Positions 27,086-63,608 of a stretch of 64,000 nt of DNA are shown here, piece by piece. Position 1 is the stretch's first letter. Each line of letters begins with the position of its first letter. Made by a program: the position numbers and the translations under genes. The DNA comes from Muribaculaceae bacterium (lineage in GTDB: Bacteria > Bacteroidota > Bacteroidia > Bacteroidales > Muribaculaceae): contig JAFLTT010000009.1 in the NCBI GenBank assembly GCA_022509165.1, forward strand, positions 1-64,000, given 5' to 3'. Below the pieces are notes generated by a model, which saw nothing but the letters and a program-made list of their open reading frames with translations, did not search any database and was not told the origin of the DNA.

Positions 27086-28388
27086 TGTCCCATAAAAATG
27101 GGAGTTGGTTAAAAATTAAATAAATTTGGCCCATTAGGGTCTGAGAGAACATTGAAATTTTGAGACTTGGTTCTGTCGAAAAGATCAACGAGATGGGTAG
27201 TATCTGTTAAAGATACTCCAAGGATTTGCAAAACTTCATAGGTTGAACGATCAAGATGCATGTCGTGCTGAACAATGGCCACAAGGCAATATGCACAGAT
27301 TGCACAATAGATTTGAATCCGGACTGCATTTTCAGAAGTGCCCCAAAGCTTCTTTATCTTAAGATGCTGCTTGAGCCATTTGAAAAACAGTTCAACCTTC
27401 CACCGGTTCCTATAAAGTTCGGCTATCTGCAGAGATGAAAGATGAGTGATGTTTGTCAGGAAAGTGAACTCTCTAGACTGCTCATCATCCCGGTATCTGA
27501 CCATCCGTAAAGTGCCTGAATAATGTTGATTGGAATAAAATCCGGTCAGTTCAACAGTAGAATCCGACAACACATTTTTAGGCATTCTCCGTTTCCATTT
27601 CAAGGTCTTATACTTAAGATTCTTCTTTGCTCTCACTACAAAGAAAGCCTCTACGGTATGAATCTTGAAAAGCCGTCTGAAGTCATTATAACCACGGTCA
27701 AAGATATAATAGGATCCTTGTTCATAAGGGATTAGATCCATTGCTTTCATATCATGAACAGATGCTGTGGTTATATGAAAGAAGGCAGGAATTTGGGTTT
27801 CCACGTCATACAGAGTGTGAACCTTTATACCTCCTTTCTTCTTGCGGAACTTGGCCCACCAGAAGACTGCAAGACATAGGTCAATTGTAGTGGAGTCGAA
27901 CACATATACATTCCCTCCGATATCAAAAATCTTAGTCTTGCACTTCTCCCTGGCTTCAGAAATCATGAAATATGCAAACTCTTCAAAAATTTTGCAGTTT
28001 CGATTTTGATTAGCATACGCAAGATTGGTTTTGAAAACATTTTTACCCATACCCATGTGGAAGCATTTATTGCTATGAGCTTCCAAAATCGTGATAAGAT
28101 CACGAAGGCTTGAACGGTTGCAAAGCTGTCCGAACATCATCACAAGAAGTTGATTCCAGCATGTGAAATGTTTCACATACCGGTCTCCGTCATACTTGGC
28201 GACTATACGGTTGAACTTGTTCCTATTCATAAATTTTATGAGTTGGGCAAAAACATACTTGACGTTGTACATGACTTCTCGTTTTGGGGAAGTCTAATAT
28301 ACCAAATCAAGTCCGTTCGCACCATTTTTCATTGTAATCAACTAAGTCTCAACAATTTTAAACGTTATTCTCAAATTTTAATGGGACA
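27086..28388 (-). mobile_element. IS4-family insertion sequence (~1.3 kb)
   Basis: Transposase flanked by imperfect terminal inverted repeats TGTCCCATAAAAAT (27086) and TGTCCCATTAAAAT (reverse complement ending 28388). Confidence 0.85.
27109..28272 (-). CDS. IS4-family transposase (N-terminal DUF4372-like)
   Basis: DSTTIDLCLAVFWWAKFRKKKGGIKVHTLYD, YRNRWKVELFFKWLKQHLKIKKLWG. Confidence 0.92.
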   Translation of the reverse strand: MYNVKYVFAQLIKFMNRNKFNRIVAKYDGDRYVKHFTCWNQLLVMMFGQLCNRSSLRDLITILEAHSNKCFHMGMGKNVFKTNLAYANQNRNCKIFEEFAYFMISEAREKCKTKIFDIGGNVYVFDSTTIDLCLAVFWWAKFRKKKGGIKVHTLYDVETQIPAFFHITTASVHDMKAMDLIPYEQGSYYIFDRGYNDFRRLFKIHTVEAFFVVRAKKNLKYKTLKWKRRMPKNVLSDSTVELTGFYSNQHYSGTLRMVRYRDDEQSREFTFLTNITHLSSLQIAELYRNRWKVELFFKWLKQHLKIKKLWGTSENAVRIQIYCAICAYCLVAIVQHDMHLDRSTYEVLQILGVSLTDTTHLVDLFDRTKSQNFNVLSDPNGPNLFNF

Positions 28389-52446: not shown

Positions 52447-53388
52447 ATGGTAAAGAAATTTGAGATAAGAAATAGCACTGCGGAATTCCTGATCTTTCAG
52501 ATTGAGGGGAAAGAAAACGGTGTGCAGGTAATATATAAGGATGAAACCATTTGGTGTACACAAAAAGCCATGGCTGAACTTTTTGATGTTGGTATCCCTG
52601 CCATTAGCAAACATTTGAAGAATATTTTTGATAGCAGAGAGTTGAAAGACACTTCAGTTGTTTCCAAAATGGAAATAACTGCCAGTGATGGGAAAATATA
52701 CAATACATCTTTTTACAATCTTGATGCTATTATCAGTGTGGGATATAGAGTAAATAGCGTGAAAGCTACTCAATTCCGGCAATGGTGCACTTATGTGATT
52801 CGTCAATTTGCCATAAGAGGATATGTCATTGATAAAAAAAGAATGGAAAATGGCTCTTTCATAGGTGAGGATTATTTCGAACATCTTTTGGCAGAGATCC
52901 GTGAAATACGGTTAAGTGAAAGGCGTTTTTATCAGAAACTAACGGATATTTATGCCACTTCCATAGATTATAATAATGATGCACCCACCACGCGACTTTT
53001 TTTCAAGAAAATGCAGAATAAGATGCATTATGCCGTTCATGGTCACACAGCTGCTGAATTAATAGTTGAAAGGGCTGACTCTGAAAAAGAACACATGGGA
53101 TTAACAACATGGGAAAATGCACCTAACGGAAAAATCCTAAAGCCAGATGTAAGTATTGCGAAAAATTACTTGAAAGAAAACGAATTGCAAGATATGGGGC
53201 GCCTTGTCAACGGTGTCTTGGATATTGCCGAAAGAATGGCTCAGCGGCATATCCCTATGACTATGGAAGACTGGGCCAAACGTATTGATATAATACTTGA
53301 GGCAGGAGGGGATAAAGTGCTTGATGATGCCGGGAAAATTACGGCTGAATATGCTTCCTTCATAACCCAGCCGATAAAGATACAATGA
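52447..53388 (+). CDS. RhuM-family (virulence protein/KilA-N-like) protein
   Basis: VIYKDETIWCTQKAMAELFDVGIPAISKHLKNIFDSRELKDTSVVSKMEITASDGKIYNTSFYNLDAIISVGYRVNS. Confidence 0.9.
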   Translation: MVKKFEIRNSTAEFLIFQIEGKENGVQVIYKDETIWCTQKAMAELFDVGIPAISKHLKNIFDSRELKDTSVVSKMEITASDGKIYNTSFYNLDAIISVGYRVNSVKATQFRQWCTYVIRQFAIRGYVIDKKRMENGSFIGEDYFEHLLAEIREIRLSERRFYQKLTDIYATSIDYNNDAPTTRLFFKKMQNKMHYAVHGHTAAELIVERADSEKEHMGLTTWENAPNGKILKPDVSIAKNYLKENELQDMGRLVNGVLDIAERMAQRHIPMTMEDWAKRIDIILEAGGDKVLDDAGKITAEYASFITQPIKIQ

Positions 53389-53672
53389 AAGCAGAACTTC
53401 GGCAAAGGATGTATGAAGATGTGTCGGCCAAGAATGTTCTTATCAATAAATATTTGAAGAAGATTGCAGAGAAAGCGGAAATCAGTAAAACTTTGTCTAT
53501 GCACATCAGCCGACATTCATTTGCATATATTGCTCAGAAATCTGGGGCACAATCTTCAGCCATAAAGAACATATTAGGCCATAGCAATCTTTCCACGACG
53601 GGAAGATACATGGGCAGTTTCGACACCTCTAAGACTGACGAAACATTGCAAATGTCTCTTTTCAAAACCTGA
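53385..53672 (+). pseudogene. C-terminal fragment of tyrosine recombinase
   Basis: MHISRHSFAYIAQKSGAQSSAIKNILGHSNLSTTGRYMGSF: HxxR, GHS and Tyr motifs present; N-terminal domain and first catalytic Arg absent. Confidence 0.82.
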
Positions 53673-56701: not shown

Positions 56702-56828
56702 AAAATTTGTATTTTCTTTGGCTCCTTATATTTAACTGCAACTTACTTTCTTAACGTGTGTTTTTGTAGGTGTGAAAATCGTTCCAAAAACACATACTAT
56801 ACTCTTAAAGCAGATTTTTGCCTCATAA

Positions 56829-56877
56829 TACCTTTGCATCGCAGCTTTGGAAAGAACCAAAACCCAAGGTTGCGATG
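56829..56877 (+). promoter_or_regulatory. TACCTTTG -7 box followed by leader hairpin
   Basis: TACCTTTG (56829-56836); CATCGCAGCTTTGG / CCAAGGTTGCGATG dyad ending 4 nt before ATG 56882. Confidence 0.65.
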
Positions 56878-56881
56878 TATT

Positions 56882-57202
56882 ATGTTTAAAAGTCACAATT
56901 TAAATTCAAATCAGCCGGGAGTCACCACAATGGTGATGATCCCACAAGAGGAGTGGCTCAACCTCCATGAAAAGCTCGACAATATTGTCGAGTTAGTGAC
57001 TAACCGTAATGCCTCCGATAAAGATTCGGAATGGATTGAATCCGACAAGGCTCGTAAAATGCTGGGAATCTCTCCCAAGACATGGCAGAACTATCGAGAC
57101 AGACGGGATATCCCATTCGCCCAAATCGGCAGGAAAATTTATGTCAAACGTGGTGACTTGGAAACTTTCATGGAATCTCATTATATTGATAAACATAAGT
57201 GA
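56882..57202 (+). CDS. Helix-turn-helix (excisionase/MerR-like) DNA-binding protein
   Basis: WIESDKARKMLGISPKTWQNYRDRRDIPFAQIGRKIYVKRGDLETFMESH. Confidence 0.85.
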   Translation: MFKSHNLNSNQPGVTTMVMIPQEEWLNLHEKLDNIVELVTNRNASDKDSEWIESDKARKMLGISPKTWQNYRDRRDIPFAQIGRKIYVKRGDLETFMESHYIDKHK

Positions 57203-58449
57203 TGGAGAGGATTGAAAGTATAAGTCCGATTGAGGAAAATAATAAGGCCTCAATAATAATGGATGAAATCCCTTTCATCAGAATAGGCACCACTTATTAT
57301 AAAGTGGCTTCTCAACCTCAGCCTGATGGCACTACTGTCATTAAACGGCTGAAATGGGATCTCCAAGCTATCAAGTTTGATTATGGGAAACAGTATCCTC
57401 GGAAAATTCCTTGCTTTAATGGATTTTGTACCGTACCCCTTCATAAGGGCTACAAGAGGGAGATAAAAGGCTTCTACAATCTTTACGAACCTATATCCCA
57501 TAAACCCCAAGAGGGTGATTGGGATAAGGTTTCAATATTGATTTCCCATATTTTCGGTGATCAATATGAACTTGGACTTGATTATCTTCATATACTTTAT
57601 CTTTATCCAATTCAAAAATTACCTATTCTTCTATTGGTATCAGAAGAAAGGAACACCGGTAAGACCACATTCCTTAATTTCTTGAAACTTTTATTTGAGG
57701 ATAATGCCACTTTCAATACTAATGATGATTTCAGGAGCAAGTTCAATTCCGACTGGACTGCTAAGCTCCTTATTCTGATAGATGAAGTACTGCTAAATCG
57801 AAGGGAAGATTCAGAAAGGTTAAAGAACTTAAGTACAGCCAAAAGCTATAAGGCGGAGGCTAAAGGTAAGGACAGGGATGAAATCGGATTTTTCGCAAAA
57901 TTCGTTATGTGTTCCAATAATGAAAGGACACCTGTATTGATTGATCCGGGCGAGATAAGATATTGGGTAAGGAAGATTGAACCACTTGAAAACGATGAAA
58001 CTGATTTTCTCAATCAGTTGAAAAATCAGATACCGGCTTTCTTATACCATCTGGATCACCGTAAACTTTCCACTTGCAAAGAGAGCCGAATGTGGTTTCA
58101 TCCCAAGAAAATTTACACTCCATCCTTGACACGGATTATCCGTTCCAATAAAAATAAGGTGGAAGTTGAACTTATAGAACTACTCCGGGATATAATGATT
58201 TCAACGGATTCCGAAAGTATAAGCTATTGTCTAAACGACATCACACAGATGTTTTATTACTCGGATTTCAAGACTGACAAATCAGATGTCCGGAGAGTGG
58301 TTCAGGATATATGGAAATTGTCACCGGCACCCAATGCTCTTTCTTATAAGTGCTGGGAAAGGAATATAACCGACCCTCGAGGATATTCCTATACTAACAA
58401 GACCGGAAGATACTACACTTTCACAAAAACCTTCCTTGATACCCTCTAA
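57202..58449 (+). CDS. Primase-helicase family protein (P-loop, DUF5906-like) of mobilizable element
   Basis: ILLLVSEERNTGKTTFLNFLKLLF, TAKLLILIDEVLLNR, FVMCSNNERTPVLI. Confidence 0.82.
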   Translation: MERIESISPIEENNKASIIMDEIPFIRIGTTYYKVASQPQPDGTTVIKRLKWDLQAIKFDYGKQYPRKIPCFNGFCTVPLHKGYKREIKGFYNLYEPISHKPQEGDWDKVSILISHIFGDQYELGLDYLHILYLYPIQKLPILLLVSEERNTGKTTFLNFLKLLFEDNATFNTNDDFRSKFNSDWTAKLLILIDEVLLNRREDSERLKNLSTAKSYKAEAKGKDRDEIGFFAKFVMCSNNERTPVLIDPGEIRYWVRKIEPLENDETDFLNQLKNQIPAFLYHLDHRKLSTCKESRMWFHPKKIYTPSLTRIIRSNKNKVEVELIELLRDIMISTDSESISYCLNDITQMFYYSDFKTDKSDVRRVVQDIWKLSPAPNALSYKCWERNITDPRGYSYTNKTGRYYTFTKTFLDTL

Positions 58450-58703: not shown

Positions 58704-59786
58704 ATGTCACAGAATCCTAAATTTAAACAGCTCTCAGCAGTTGAATTCGATGCCACAGTATCAGCCAATGATCTCTGCATGGCCTTCGGGTTAATATTAA
58801 CTTACCAAAAGAAATCTCTCAAACATTTTATAATGCCAAACGGGGCTGAAATGGTGGTTAACCTATCTCGAAATGAAGCCTGTGTTCCTACATCCAATAT
58901 TATATGGCAACCCTCCCAATTGGCAAGGGAAATGAAACTCATAAACGGAGAGGAGAATTTTTCTTCAGCCTTGGAAATGATTGAGAGCTTTTATAACTCT
59001 ATAGAATCCAATCCAGTTTCTTTTCCCTATAGTGTGGTAAGTTCTCCAGTACATCATCTAACTGACAACACACGCATTCAAGATCGAGACCTGACACTAT
59101 TGATGAATCGAATGGGAATATCCAAAAACATTGGCGATTTCTATGGTATTGAAGGCTCGTTGCCGAATATCCCCAGCGAAGGACATAAAAGAGTGTTGGC
59201 TTTCCCTGTATATAATGAGAGCGAAAGCTACATTGCTTTCGATGGAAAATCTTGGCGACAGATTGGGGAAGCCGGGATGAGTACCTTCCATGAAAGGAGA
59301 AAGGATCAGGTCTGCATGGTGTATGAGAATATTCTTGATTTCCTTGCCATGATGGAGATGGTGACAAAAAATGGCGTAGCTCCAATTTTGAGAAGCCGTT
59401 TTCACTTGGTGACAAATGGTGAACGGGGTTTGGAGGCTACATGTCAATATCTCAAATCCAATCCTGATTTTCTTGAAGTGAAATGTCTTTTGTCTGACAG
59501 ACCCGAGGGCAGAAAAATCTTCAGGGCCATCCATGAGGCTACTAAAGGAACTGCCATAGACCGTAAAGACCTTTTGGGCAACTATCCTTCAATCGTTGCT
59601 AAATGTCAGCCAAAAAGACCTCAATATTGGCAGACAATATTGATACCCGAGGAGCCAATCATCAAAAATGAAATTTCCAATGATGTCAGCCAGCAACAGG
59701 CTGAAAAGAAACTTCAGGAAATGGTGAACCAGAGGGAAACGAAAACCGTAGTTTACAATTCCAAGTCAGGAGGTTTAAAGATGTAA
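58704..59786 (+). CDS. Toprim/primase-like protein of Bacteroidales mobilizable element
   Basis: Position between primase-helicase and oriT/relaxase; RVLAFPVYNESESYIAFDGKSWRQIGEAGMSTF, toprim-like DFLAMMEM. Confidence 0.6.
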   Translation: MSQNPKFKQLSAVEFDATVSANDLCMAFGLILTYQKKSLKHFIMPNGAEMVVNLSRNEACVPTSNIIWQPSQLAREMKLINGEENFSSALEMIESFYNSIESNPVSFPYSVVSSPVHHLTDNTRIQDRDLTLLMNRMGISKNIGDFYGIEGSLPNIPSEGHKRVLAFPVYNESESYIAFDGKSWRQIGEAGMSTFHERRKDQVCMVYENILDFLAMMEMVTKNGVAPILRSRFHLVTNGERGLEATCQYLKSNPDFLEVKCLLSDRPEGRKIFRAIHEATKGTAIDRKDLLGNYPSIVAKCQPKRPQYWQTILIPEEPIIKNEISNDVSQQQAEKKLQEMVNQRETKTVVYNSKSGGLKM

Positions 59787-59960: not shown

Positions 59961-61016
59961 ATGATGGCGACCGTCAGTAAATCGTCAGACATTTCGCATA
60001 GTCTGACCTATGTACAGAATAAAGAGAAAGATGGTGGAATCCTCTTTGCGAATCTCACCGATTTGTCTGCCACACCTGAAGAACAGGCAAGAGACTGGGA
60101 GGCTCTGTCGAATGACTATAAAACTAAATGTTACAATATTGTAATTTCCTTCACTCCCAACGAAACGCATGCATTAAGGTCTATGTCGGACAATGGTCGT
60201 AACAAAGTCAGCACTCTCATTAAAGAGTTTCTTCAGGATCTTTCAGGCAGAGGCAATGATGTTTCAGAGTGTCCCTTTGTGGTGGCACGTCATGACAATA
60301 CAGATAACGAGCATTATCATATCTGCATATTGGCAACCGATATAAATGGCAATCGCTTTAGTGATTCTTTCATCAATAAGAATGCCACACGTGCAGCTGC
60401 AAAAGTAGCTATGGATAATAATCTTGAAGGAGCAAAGAAAGCGATGGAAAGAGAAAAGGCACATCAGGAAGCAACCGGCAAGAGTAAGAAGGAGAAAAAG
60501 ACTCGTTACCATGCTCCTTCGGATTCACAAGAAAAGATTAATGATAGACTTAGTAGAAAGAGGGCTGTTGAAGAAGCCAAGAAACGCAAGGCCTCACTGG
60601 CGTTCATCATTAATCACGTGGCTCAACAATCTAACAAATATAGTTTCATGGATAATCTTTCTAAAGAAGGTATTACACTCCGGTACGATGAAAAGAAAGG
60701 CTTGGTGGCAGAAATAGTCTACAAGGATAGTAAACCACGTACCTATTCCCTGGTGAAAGACTTGGGTATTGACCCTTCAATACTCCCGGATTTGCCTTCT
60801 CAACCTGTCAAACAAGATACTATTTCCACTAAAGTTAAGACATCTACCCATACCCCCGTATCAACAAAGATAAATTATACTCCGAAATCTTTTATTTCCA
60901 CCGGATTGAATTCAGTTGGTGGCACCGGGGTCAACCGGGAATGGGAGGTCGGAACTAAGAAACGGAGTCCTGATGATCCCGATGAAGAAGTAAAACGTAA
61001 AGGAATGTCATATTAA
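59961..61016 (+). CDS. Relaxase/mobilization nuclease domain protein
   Basis: KCYNIVISFTPNET, FVVARHDNTDNEHYHICI (HxH metal-binding motif), Lys/Glu-rich C-terminus. Confidence 0.88.
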   Translation: MMATVSKSSDISHSLTYVQNKEKDGGILFANLTDLSATPEEQARDWEALSNDYKTKCYNIVISFTPNETHALRSMSDNGRNKVSTLIKEFLQDLSGRGNDVSECPFVVARHDNTDNEHYHICILATDINGNRFSDSFINKNATRAAAKVAMDNNLEGAKKAMEREKAHQEATGKSKKEKKTRYHAPSDSQEKINDRLSRKRAVEEAKKRKASLAFIINHVAQQSNKYSFMDNLSKEGITLRYDEKKGLVAEIVYKDSKPRTYSLVKDLGIDPSILPDLPSQPVKQDTISTKVKTSTHTPVSTKINYTPKSFISTGLNSVGGTGVNREWEVGTKKRSPDDPDEEVKRKGMSY

Positions 61017-61028
61017 AATTACATAACT

Positions 61029-61415
61029 ATGCAAAAGAAAAATAATCCGTCGGCACTATCGAAAAGCCGGCAAAAGAAAAAACCTGAGGAAAATCTCTCC
61101 AACCGTATAACAATACGGTTCACAACTGAAGAAGCATCTTTGATTACTCAAAGAGCAGAAGCACGAGGTTTGAAAATAAGTGAATACTCACGTTCAGCGA
61201 TTCTACGAAGAAAGATAACTGACCATTCCCCTGAAACCAAGGACTTCATCCGTAAATTCACCGGTATGGCAAACAATCTGAATCAGATTACCCGATATAT
61301 GTATTCCAAGGACAGTACCCCTGAGAAAATGCTTATCCTACTCGAATATTTCAAGGAAGAATTTCAGAAAATAAAAACGATTATCTATAACACTAACACC
61401 AACGATTATGAGTAA
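61029..61415 (+). CDS. MobC-like relaxosome protein
   Basis: RITIRFTTEEASLITQRAEARGLKISEYSRSAIL, FTGMANNLNQITRYMY. Confidence 0.85.
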   Translation: MQKKNNPSALSKSRQKKKPEENLSNRITIRFTTEEASLITQRAEARGLKISEYSRSAILRRKITDHSPETKDFIRKFTGMANNLNQITRYMYSKDSTPEKMLILLEYFKEEFQKIKTIIYNTNTNDYE

Positions 61416-62034
61416 TATGTTTGAAAATGTAAAATCAGATTCCCACACCCAAGATTATAATCCTTCGTCAGTGCCTCACAATAATCTTATTGAATATGAA
61501 AAAGTGGCAGAAAGAATTGAGGTTGCCACTCGAAATATGTCTGAGTCCGCAGCAGCCTTTCTTGACCTTCTACTCGAAGATAATGGCACCCTCAAAGACT
61601 TTCCCCACATAAAAGAAACGAATAAAATCCTTCTTAAAAACTATAGAATGATGGAGAATATAGGAGAGCAGATAGATATTTTAAGTTATGACATTAAGAA
61701 CTTCAACAAAACAATACCATCCCACATAGAAATGAAGCTCTGCGAAGATGACTGGAATCTAATCCAATCCTTTATTCCTAAATGGAAATCAATGCTGAAA
61801 ATCTTACACCCTTCCCTCTTGGCAGTTGGTATAGTAATAGGTCTCTTCATAGGTGCCAATTTGATTGTTTACAACGCTTATACCTCCTCTTTTAAAGAAT
61901 TCCTAGAGAAGAATGAACTCCTTGACCAATCCTTAAAGGAAAATTCAGACGCCATAGCACTTTCAGAATACATCAAGTCCCATTATCCAAAGATTTATGG
62001 TAAGTGGGAGAAAGAAAATCACTCCGCAAATTAA
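61408..62034 (+). CDS. Hypothetical membrane protein, mobilization accessory
   Basis: Overlaps mobC by 8 nt; one TM segment (LLAVGIVIGLFIGANLIVYNAY). Confidence 0.65.
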   Translation: MSNMFENVKSDSHTQDYNPSSVPHNNLIEYEKVAERIEVATRNMSESAAAFLDLLLEDNGTLKDFPHIKETNKILLKNYRMMENIGEQIDILSYDIKNFNKTIPSHIEMKLCEDDWNLIQSFIPKWKSMLKILHPSLLAVGIVIGLFIGANLIVYNAYTSSFKEFLEKNELLDQSLKENSDAIALSEYIKSHYPKIYGKWEKENHSAN

Positions 62035-62102
62035 TCATCATCTTTTGCATCTCCCATAGAATCCTTACAATCAACTCCGATTGCAAGGATTTTTCGCTTA
62101 AA

Positions 62103-63608
62103 TTACAAGTTTATATCACCTGAATACTGGTTTTCACGTGTTCTATTTAAAGCCATAATTCTGGATTCCTCTTTAGTCCAGCGTTTGTGGCATATTTGTT
62201 CCATTAAATTTTGTGTCTTCATCAATAGTTGAACATCTCCTATTAAAATAAAGTCTATGATAGACTTTATAATTTCCATACAAGAAGGTAAATTCTTCAA
62301 TATATTCCTTTCGGAGAATCTGACAACGAACCAATTGTTTTCTATAAAGAAGGAATTTCGCTTATTATCTTCACCTCCTAAATAATGAATTTCTTTCCTT
62401 GTTTTGTAATCATAGGGTTCATCTATTTCTATATCTATCCAAATATTATTAATTTTTAGAATTATATCCGGATAATAATTCCCGATATTTCCACCTAAAA
62501 AAACAGATTCTGGAAATTTTAATTTTAATTCTGCAGAAAGTAAATCTTCCCAATATCCTTTTTGAGCAGATGCATTTACTAATCGGATTTGATTAGTCAA
62601 GTAATTTAATTTGCCTAAATTCAATGAATTATTTATAATAGGAATAAAATATTCTTTAAATAAAGAATGTCTTTCTTTGTAGGATTTTATTTGCAAATCT
62701 GAGAAAATATAACCTTTCCTTTCAAAAATATTGGAAGAGATTATACCCTGTTTATAAAAATAAAGTTTTCTTTCTTCTTCTCTTAATTCATTTAACTGTT
62801 TATCCGTGTGCTTTAAAGTAGCTAAATAAGATTCAGAAGAAAATAATTCTTCTAAACCAGTCATCAGGAAATTTTTATCCTTAATACTTTTGGTGGCGAT
62901 TTTAAATCTTCTATTCTTCTCTTCTTTATAAATTTTTTCTTCTCTTTCTTTTATTTGATTTTTAATTTTTTCTATTTCATCTTTCAGTTTAATTTGCTTA
63001 TTTAGATCCTCATAATAGGAATGAATATAATAGATAAAATTTTTACGCTCCTTGTTATAATTTTCATTTAATAAATTTTCATGTTTCTTAATTTCTTCAT
63101 CGGATAAAATTTTTTCTCTTATATATTTTTTTTCAAACCATCCCATGTCTAAAAAGAAACCACCAATAAGAAATATCAAGACAAAGATTAATAAACCTCC
63201 CAAAAAAGAATCTACAACATTGTAAACATAAATGCAAATTGATAACAAAAAAATAAATATTGTTATTGTAATCCAATTAAAATCCTCTCGTTCTTCTAAT
63301 ACATTTTTAACAATGGTTCCTCTTTCAGGGAATTTTATGTATCCAGGCAAATAACAAAAATGTTCTAAAATTTTTCGTTGAGAATCTGAGTCTTTAAATA
63401 TATCAGCTTTTAAGGAATTTGATTTTGATTTTAAGATATTATTACAAATCTCTATGATATTAAAATTTATTGAGTTGGGGAAAAGTATGTAGGGATATTT
63501 GTTGTCGGTTTGTATTTGAGAAAGAGCCATAAGAACATTGGGGGAATTTAAATCCATTAATACTCCAATATCTTCCAATTCATTAATGTTACTATTAGGT
63601 TGATTCAT
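62103..63608 (-). CDS. Membrane-anchored coiled-coil protein with C-terminal PD-(D/E)XK-like nuclease domain
   Basis: Two TM segments, long charged coiled coil, GNYYPDIILKINNIWIDIEIDEPYDYKTRKEIHY...NSFFIENNWFVVRFSERNI; ATG at 63608. Confidence 0.7.
   Translation of the reverse strand: MNQPNSNINELEDIGVLMDLNSPNVLMALSQIQTDNKYPYILFPNSINFNIIEICNNILKSKSNSLKADIFKDSDSQRKILEHFCYLPGYIKFPERGTIVKNVLEEREDFNWITITIFIFLLSICIYVYNVVDSFLGGLLIFVLIFLIGGFFLDMGWFEKKYIREKILSDEEIKKHENLLNENYNKERKNFIYYIHSYYEDLNKQIKLKDEIEKIKNQIKEREEKIYKEEKNRRFKIATKSIKDKNFLMTGLEELFSSESYLATLKHTDKQLNELREEERKLYFYKQGIISSNIFERKGYIFSDLQIKSYKERHSLFKEYFIPIINNSLNLGKLNYLTNQIRLVNASAQKGYWEDLLSAELKLKFPESVFLGGNIGNYYPDIILKINNIWIDIEIDEPYDYKTRKEIHYLGGEDNKRNSFFIENNWFVVRFSERNILKNLPSCMEIIKSIIDFILIGDVQLLMKTQNLMEQICHKRWTKEESRIMALNRTRENQYSGDINL

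Follow-up and report, generated by a model that had tools for sequence, protein, structure and literature searches.

The window, a stretch of 64,000 nucleotides of Muribaculaceae DNA, carries near its right end a mobilizable element whose mob operon is followed by a nuclease gene on the opposite strand. The open reading frame of this gene has exact limits (reverse strand, start ATG at 63608, stop at 62103, 501 aa) and is a real gene, present as a single copy in the 2.59-Mb genome. The features of the element and of the nuclease are the following.

56756-57202, forward strand: HTH_17 (excisionase-like) protein (PF12728, 4.9e-12)
57199-58449, forward strand: DUF5906/P4-type primase-helicase-like protein (PF19263, 8.6e-22)
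58704-59786, forward strand: 360-aa element protein, homologous to the gene at the same position of related elements
59961-61016, forward strand: MobA/VirD2-type relaxase (PF03432, 3.8e-15)
61029-61415, forward strand: NikA/MobC-like relaxosome protein (PF21983, 6.3e-17)
61408-62034, forward strand: transmembrane (TM) protein, last of the mob operon and start of the cargo slot; related genes in 14 other family genomes
62060-62091, in the gap where the mob operon and the nuclease gene converge: hairpin, probable terminator (13-nt arms, then T-rich)
62103-63608, reverse strand: membrane-hairpin nuclease gene ('DEPY' family; open reading frame of 501 aa)
62106-62588, reverse strand: predicted DUF559/Vsr-like PD-(D/E)XK nuclease domain, residues 341-501 (AlphaFold, Foldseek, DUF559 matches)
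62418-62549, reverse strand: putative active-site residues E354, D381, E394, D396 and E397, invariant (H408 at 62385-62387)
62883-63104, reverse strand: predicted long Lys/Glu-rich helix, residues 169-242 (structure model, composition)
63153-63272, reverse strand: predicted two-helix membrane hairpin, residues ~113-152 (hydropathy and Lys/Arg counts over 52 relatives; model helices)
63477-63497, reverse strand: YPYILFP, the YPxhxxP strand, residues 38-44 (P39 nearly invariant)

The nuclease gene faces the relaxase, NikA and TM genes with the hairpin between them, as the sequence-only reading had stated in calling it convergent to the mob genes. Its AT-richness is likewise borne out: the GC content is 26.0% in the nuclease gene, 36-42% in the mob genes and 41.6% in the window as a whole. 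The 360-aa protein and the mob TM protein match no Pfam family above cut-off; the label 'toprim', given to the former by eye, was dropped since Pfam gives it no family. A tRNA-Leu(caa) lies outside the window at 64204-64288, 0.6 kb past the 5' end of the nuclease gene. A same-genus genome has a degraded mob TM gene that is also near a tRNA-Leu(caa), and this points to an attachment site. The left of the element was searched for a direct repeat of the 3' end of tRNA-Leu; none was found, and thus the element ends are not fixed. The interval between the nuclease gene and the tRNA-Leu holds a 121-aa membrane protein (63745-64110, reverse strand), which was considered as a partner of the nuclease and rejected as an orphan, with relatives in none of 197 other genomes of the family. 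At 52447-53672 on the forward strand a RhuM-like reading frame abuts a 95-aa fragment resembling the C-terminus of an integrase; this fragment has longer integrase-like counterparts in related elements, and the element integrase seems to be broken. The window also contains an apparently intact IS4-like transposase gene (27109-28272, reverse strand; named by eye).

The 501-aa protein matches no model above its own cut-off in Pfam, NCBIfam, PADLOC and PHROGs. In PADLOC-DB 2.0.0 the query is unmatched and a single marginal match (9.9e-4) is seen among 50 relatives. A single-sequence back-translation search of GTDB with the 501-aa query found no relatives, while whole-genome searches located them in 7 of 395 other genomes of the phylum and in 7 of 296 of the family, the matches falling mostly in the C-terminal ~120 aa of reading frames of very different lengths. 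The alignment of these C-terminal domains served as query for a second search of GTDB (84,980 species genomes), which returned 304 relatives among 335 D[IV]E[IV]DEPY stretches. The domain is thus carried by about 300 GTDB species, for the most part Bacteroidota and Cyanobacteriota. The family is named DEPY after the IDIEIDEPY motif of the 501-aa nuclease. The best 80 of the 304 relatives belong to Bacteroidota and Cyanobacteriota, with one in Calditrichota; the domain also occurs in eight viral contigs and on 20 cyanobacterial plasmids. The distribution is patchy and accessory, and literature searches returned no paper describing the family.

The C-terminal domain is confidently modelled as a PD-(D/E)XK fold that is closest to the DUF559/Vsr-like endonucleases. 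Modelled in isolation (AlphaFold, residues 330-501, 68-row alignment; the alignment for the full-length model left out the plasmid-collection rows), the domain reaches a pLDDT of 90.5 and a pTM of 0.85, so that the structure prediction proposed with the sequence-only reading returned a nuclease fold. The domain model displays a helix at positions 23-35, strands at 53-57 and 60-67, a helix at 85-94, a strand at 97-103 and then a long helix, with an additional short strand pair at 41-46, and it contains the alpha-beta-beta-beta-alpha-beta order of the PD-(D/E)XK core. The best PDB match in Foldseek is the DUF559 endonuclease-like protein 3hrl (probability 0.98, TMt 0.69), followed by I-Bth0305I (3r3p), a homing endonuclease of the Vsr-like type, and by archaeal Hjc, none of the PDB matches reaching E<0.001. 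A comparison with the viral library places endonuclease-like and DNA-mismatch-endonuclease proteins first, at probability 1.00. The full-length model gave weak matches only, and those of the isolated domain are clearer. At the sequence level, DUF559 (PF04480) matches 45 of the 68 relatives at E<=0.05 (best 2.5e-9) and REase_MTES_1575 (PF18741) matches 14, the query itself scoring 15.5 bits against DUF559, below the gathering cut-off of 20.6. Vsr-like endonucleases, a part of the PD-(D/E)XK superfamily, are described as often containing DUF559 domains (PMC12907096).

Conservation is dominated by residues E354, D381, E394, D396, E397, P398, H408 and E433, which are invariant in 50-55 full-length relatives, and is reinforced by the nearly invariant G351, D392, D414, R417, W426, R430, W477 and R491; E354 is kept in at least 90% of the 68-row domain alignment. 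The motif order of the DUF559/Vsr-like enzymes is present, with E354 in helix 1, D381, E394xD396, H408 and a C-terminal R430-F431. The Lys of the (D/E)XK motif is found in none of the relatives aligned, ExD replacing ExK in all of them; in the Vsr/DUF559 branch the classical PD-(D/E)XK Lys is expected to be absent. The D-(E)xD/E spacing first noticed in the sequence alone proves to be a D...(E)xD motif invariant in all relatives aligned, far above chance. The two doubts attached to the original proposal, a C-terminal fold unlike that of nucleases and an active site not conserved in homologues, both fall away because the fold is nuclease-like and the active site is conserved. The domain is probably catalytically active.

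Upstream of the nuclease the protein displays two adjacent TM helices, as had been read from the sequence, which cover residues ~113-131 and 134-152 and are joined by a loop of two residues; the corresponding helices of the structure model span 112-132 and 135-166. The hairpin loop carries neither Lys nor Arg and its flanks are positive. A membrane segment before the nuclease is the commonest architecture among the 98 relatives in the tree (54); a second, RecB-like nuclease domain is present in eight, and the other 36 lack both. Two TM helices are found in 49 of 52 membrane-type relatives, with a loop that averages about 6 residues, and the mean number of Lys plus Arg in membrane-type relatives is 0.47 in the loop versus 3.4 and 5.1 in the 25-residue flanks. 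This positive-inside charge pattern indicates that the nuclease would face the cytoplasm. A membrane anchor with a cytoplasmic nuclease is thus supported, as a prediction, across the family, and the earlier description of the protein as membrane-anchored agrees with a hairpin and charge pattern seen over 49 relatives. The hairpin is kept over long distances in the family, and the query clade, composed of the query, Odoribacter, Butyricimonas, Phocaeicola and two others, is entirely membrane-type (support 99/83).

The N-terminal domain announced by the sequence-only reading is not confidently globular in the model, where a large part of residues 1-110 has a low pLDDT. The exception is the stretch around the short YPxhxxP strand (Y38-P44), which is conserved across the family, the motif occurring in 83 of 96 relatives. 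Membrane types have it ahead of the hairpin, and in hairpin-less proteins it is near the nuclease core; because of this difference in position the membrane module seems to be an insertion between the YPxhxxP strand and the nuclease core. Beyond the hairpin, the central region (residues 161-340) has a net charge of +7 and includes a predicted helix of 74 residues (169-242) with 38% Lys plus Glu. This helix had been described as a long Lys/Glu coiled coil; its length and composition stand, and since its heptad score at a period of 3.5 is equalled by 910 of 5000 shuffled sequences it is better named a long charged helix.

The position of the nuclease gene was compared with the DNA that follows the mob operon in related elements, using the 14 other family genomes that carry a relative of the mob TM gene; in 11 of them the downstream DNA is assembled and readable. 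Restriction systems occupy this slot in eight of the 11: an HsdM protein (L170), HsdM with HsdR (L171), a type III Mod-like methylase with an SNF2 helicase (L172), an LlaGI/LlaBIII-like enzyme (L173), N6-methylase restriction loci (L178, L180 and L181, the last with weak PDB support) and two GmrSD_N proteins (L179). The other three hold a HerA-like cluster (L175:7273-14000), an operon of 2284-aa and 767-aa proteins (L176:869-12066) and a 1258-aa protein with several co-directional genes (L177:4034-13690; no PDB match for the slot protein), and are candidates for new defence systems. The slot-bearing genomes hold only 2-11 N6-methylase matches each, and the placement of restriction loci in the slot is thus far from random. 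The DEPY nuclease gene was not found in the 11 slots read. As the slot is mostly filled with restriction systems, the nuclease gene of the query is very probably defence cargo.

Defence genes also lie near DEPY relatives elsewhere. AbiH overlaps the nuclease gene by 11 bp at the locus of a close relative (L055), and at another locus (L053) a relaxase precedes and GmrSD_N follows the nuclease; AbiEii, type I restriction genes (named by eye) and a reverse transcriptase are further neighbours. In a PADLOC control, 122 neighbour proteins match 345 families versus 11 for 120 other proteins from the same bacterial groups, a crude ratio that is inflated by multi-model matches and by the helicase that accompanies the RecB-type branch. 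Three membrane-type relatives (L126, L130 and L066) stand alone beside housekeeping genes, and a cyanobacterial branch that has no membrane segment sits in a conserved plasmid backbone. The designation of the gene as candidate defence cargo is strengthened by both the slot comparison and the defence genes near other family members, and that the 501-aa protein is a nuclease serving as defence cargo can be held with good confidence.

Two further forms of the domain were observed among the relatives. A hairpin-less version of ~205 aa recurs on Nostocales plasmids (L017, L039, L041-L043, L045, L050 and GTDB Nostocales loci) near a Gp157-like gene and often near a relaxase/MobC/ParM block. At L025, L027, L074 and L135, and also at L032, L034, L115 and L134, the nuclease domain is fused to a RecB/PDDEXK_1-like second nuclease. 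The first four of these are directly followed by a gene of similar length, which encodes an SF1 (AAA_11/AAA_12) helicase where scanned (L025, L074), and their N-terminal domains include vWA (L025) and HU-like (L074) types; the RecB-type fusion with its helicase looks like a separate two-gene defence system. Another RhuM-like gene (L107:6142-6657) lies ~0.8 kb upstream of a family member.

The best overall explanation is that an integrative mobilizable element carries, as cargo, a single-gene, membrane-held defence nuclease that cuts incoming DNA, to which we assign a probability of about 0.5. The two-helix hairpin would anchor the protein in the inner membrane so that its N- and C-terminus are both cytoplasmic, and the positively charged helical stalk would distance the C-terminal nuclease from the membrane. 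Tethering would thus keep the nuclease off the nucleoid and at the entry site of phage or plasmid DNA, and the proposal that it cuts incoming DNA follows from this location. The same logic is known from SNIPE (PD-lambda-1), a membrane-bound GIY-YIG nuclease, reported in 2026, that cuts phage DNA during injection (PMC13190303). The DEPY protein would reach the same order of functions from unrelated parts, which favours the cutting of incoming DNA; this step, taken on its own and by analogy, has a little under an even chance. Tethering may also provide the discrimination between self and non-self.

Abortive infection and a role in the service of the element are the main rivals to cutting at entry, and each is unlikely. 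In abortive infection the membrane module would sense phage damage or a phage protein and free the nuclease against host DNA or RNA, leading to cell death, a scheme that requires the protein alone to be kept inactive. A layout of putative membrane sensor plus nuclease agrees with it, as do the overlap with AbiH in a close relative and the AbiEii genes near others. However, the gene is single and without a partner, its 121-aa neighbour being an orphan; a loop of about 6 residues on average leaves almost no periplasmic sensor, and the slot of related elements holds mostly DNA-restriction systems. The protein might instead serve the element by processing DNA at the membrane, by excluding related elements from entry or by a part in maintenance. 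This role has real support in cyanobacteria, where relatives, some of them lacking a membrane segment, belong to the conserved backbone of conjugative or mobilizable plasmids, close to the relaxase and MobC; relatives also directly follow a relaxase in Phocaeicola and in the integrative mobilizable element of L134. The query is less well explained in this way, since related elements that share its mob operon do without the nuclease gene and carry restriction systems instead; moreover, many relatives are not near mob genes, and the nuclease gene runs opposite to the mob operon and has a far higher AT content (26% GC vs 36-42%).

A toxin-like or housekeeping nuclease, for instance in Vsr-like mismatch repair, with an incidental membrane location, is improbable. 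The closest solved folds are of the DUF559/Vsr-like type, and Caulobacter VsrA, a DUF559 protein, has been proposed to act in mismatch repair (PMC12907096), but DEPY genes are patchy, accessory and found on mobile elements, a cytosine methyltransferase partner was not seen beside the gene, and the hairpin is conserved over long distances. A polymorphic secreted toxin was also considered and rejected; an immunity partner was not seen and the hairpin would keep the domain cytoplasmic.

The reading as a membrane-held nuclease that cuts incoming DNA, if true, would mean that location, not sequence, separates self from non-self in a second nuclease family, and this second family, with another nuclease fold, anchor and host range, would make the principle probably general. 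Bacteroidota and Cyanobacteriota would gain a single-gene, easily tested system. The slot after the mob operon is refilled repeatedly with restriction systems, and its unassigned occupants are leads to new systems.

Among known systems, SNIPE is the closest functional analogue that comparison of layouts suggests for the DEPY protein. In SNIPE an anchor in the membrane is followed by a middle domain that binds DNA and, at the C-terminus, by a cytoplasmic nuclease; the anchor prevents cutting of host DNA, and foreign DNA is recognised by place rather than by sequence (PMC13190303). Both are single proteins with an anchor near the N-terminus, a helical or charged middle and a C-terminal cytoplasmic nuclease, and both families are patchy in distribution and have diversified N-terminal regions. 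In contrast, SNIPE has one TM segment, DUF4041 and GIY-YIG, where the DEPY protein has a two-TM hairpin, a charged helical stalk and a PD-(D/E)XK nuclease, and a Pfam scan of the 501-aa protein gave no DUF4041 or GIY-YIG match. The layout is therefore shared but the domains are not, and the DEPY protein is not a SNIPE. More tentatively, the family may represent a second and evolutionarily independent solution on the SNIPE principle, in which a single-gene, membrane-hairpin nuclease of the Vsr/DUF559 type, widespread in Bacteroidota and Cyanobacteriota and with its membrane module placed between strand and nuclease, cuts entering DNA. The DUF559, REase_MTES_1575 and Vsr-like nucleases share the fold and the motif order E...D...ExD...H...R(F/Y) with the DEPY domain, which, unlike the DUF559 families, has its own DEPY motif, a shifted His, a conserved W..EA..MA...R C-terminal extension and the membrane insertion. 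Type I, type III and ISP restriction systems and GmrSD lie, like the DEPY nuclease, directly after the mob operon, but these are known systems whereas the DEPY nuclease has no methyltransferase or helicase partner. Zorya and Kiwa couple membrane defence to DNA (PMC12904381), yet they are multi-gene systems built from other protein families, while the DEPY protein has neither a motor nor a lattice protein. The DEPY protein is thus probably an undescribed kind of defence protein, and its nuclease is a candidate to join the known membrane-tethered defence nucleases as a hairpin-held PD-(D/E)XK type.
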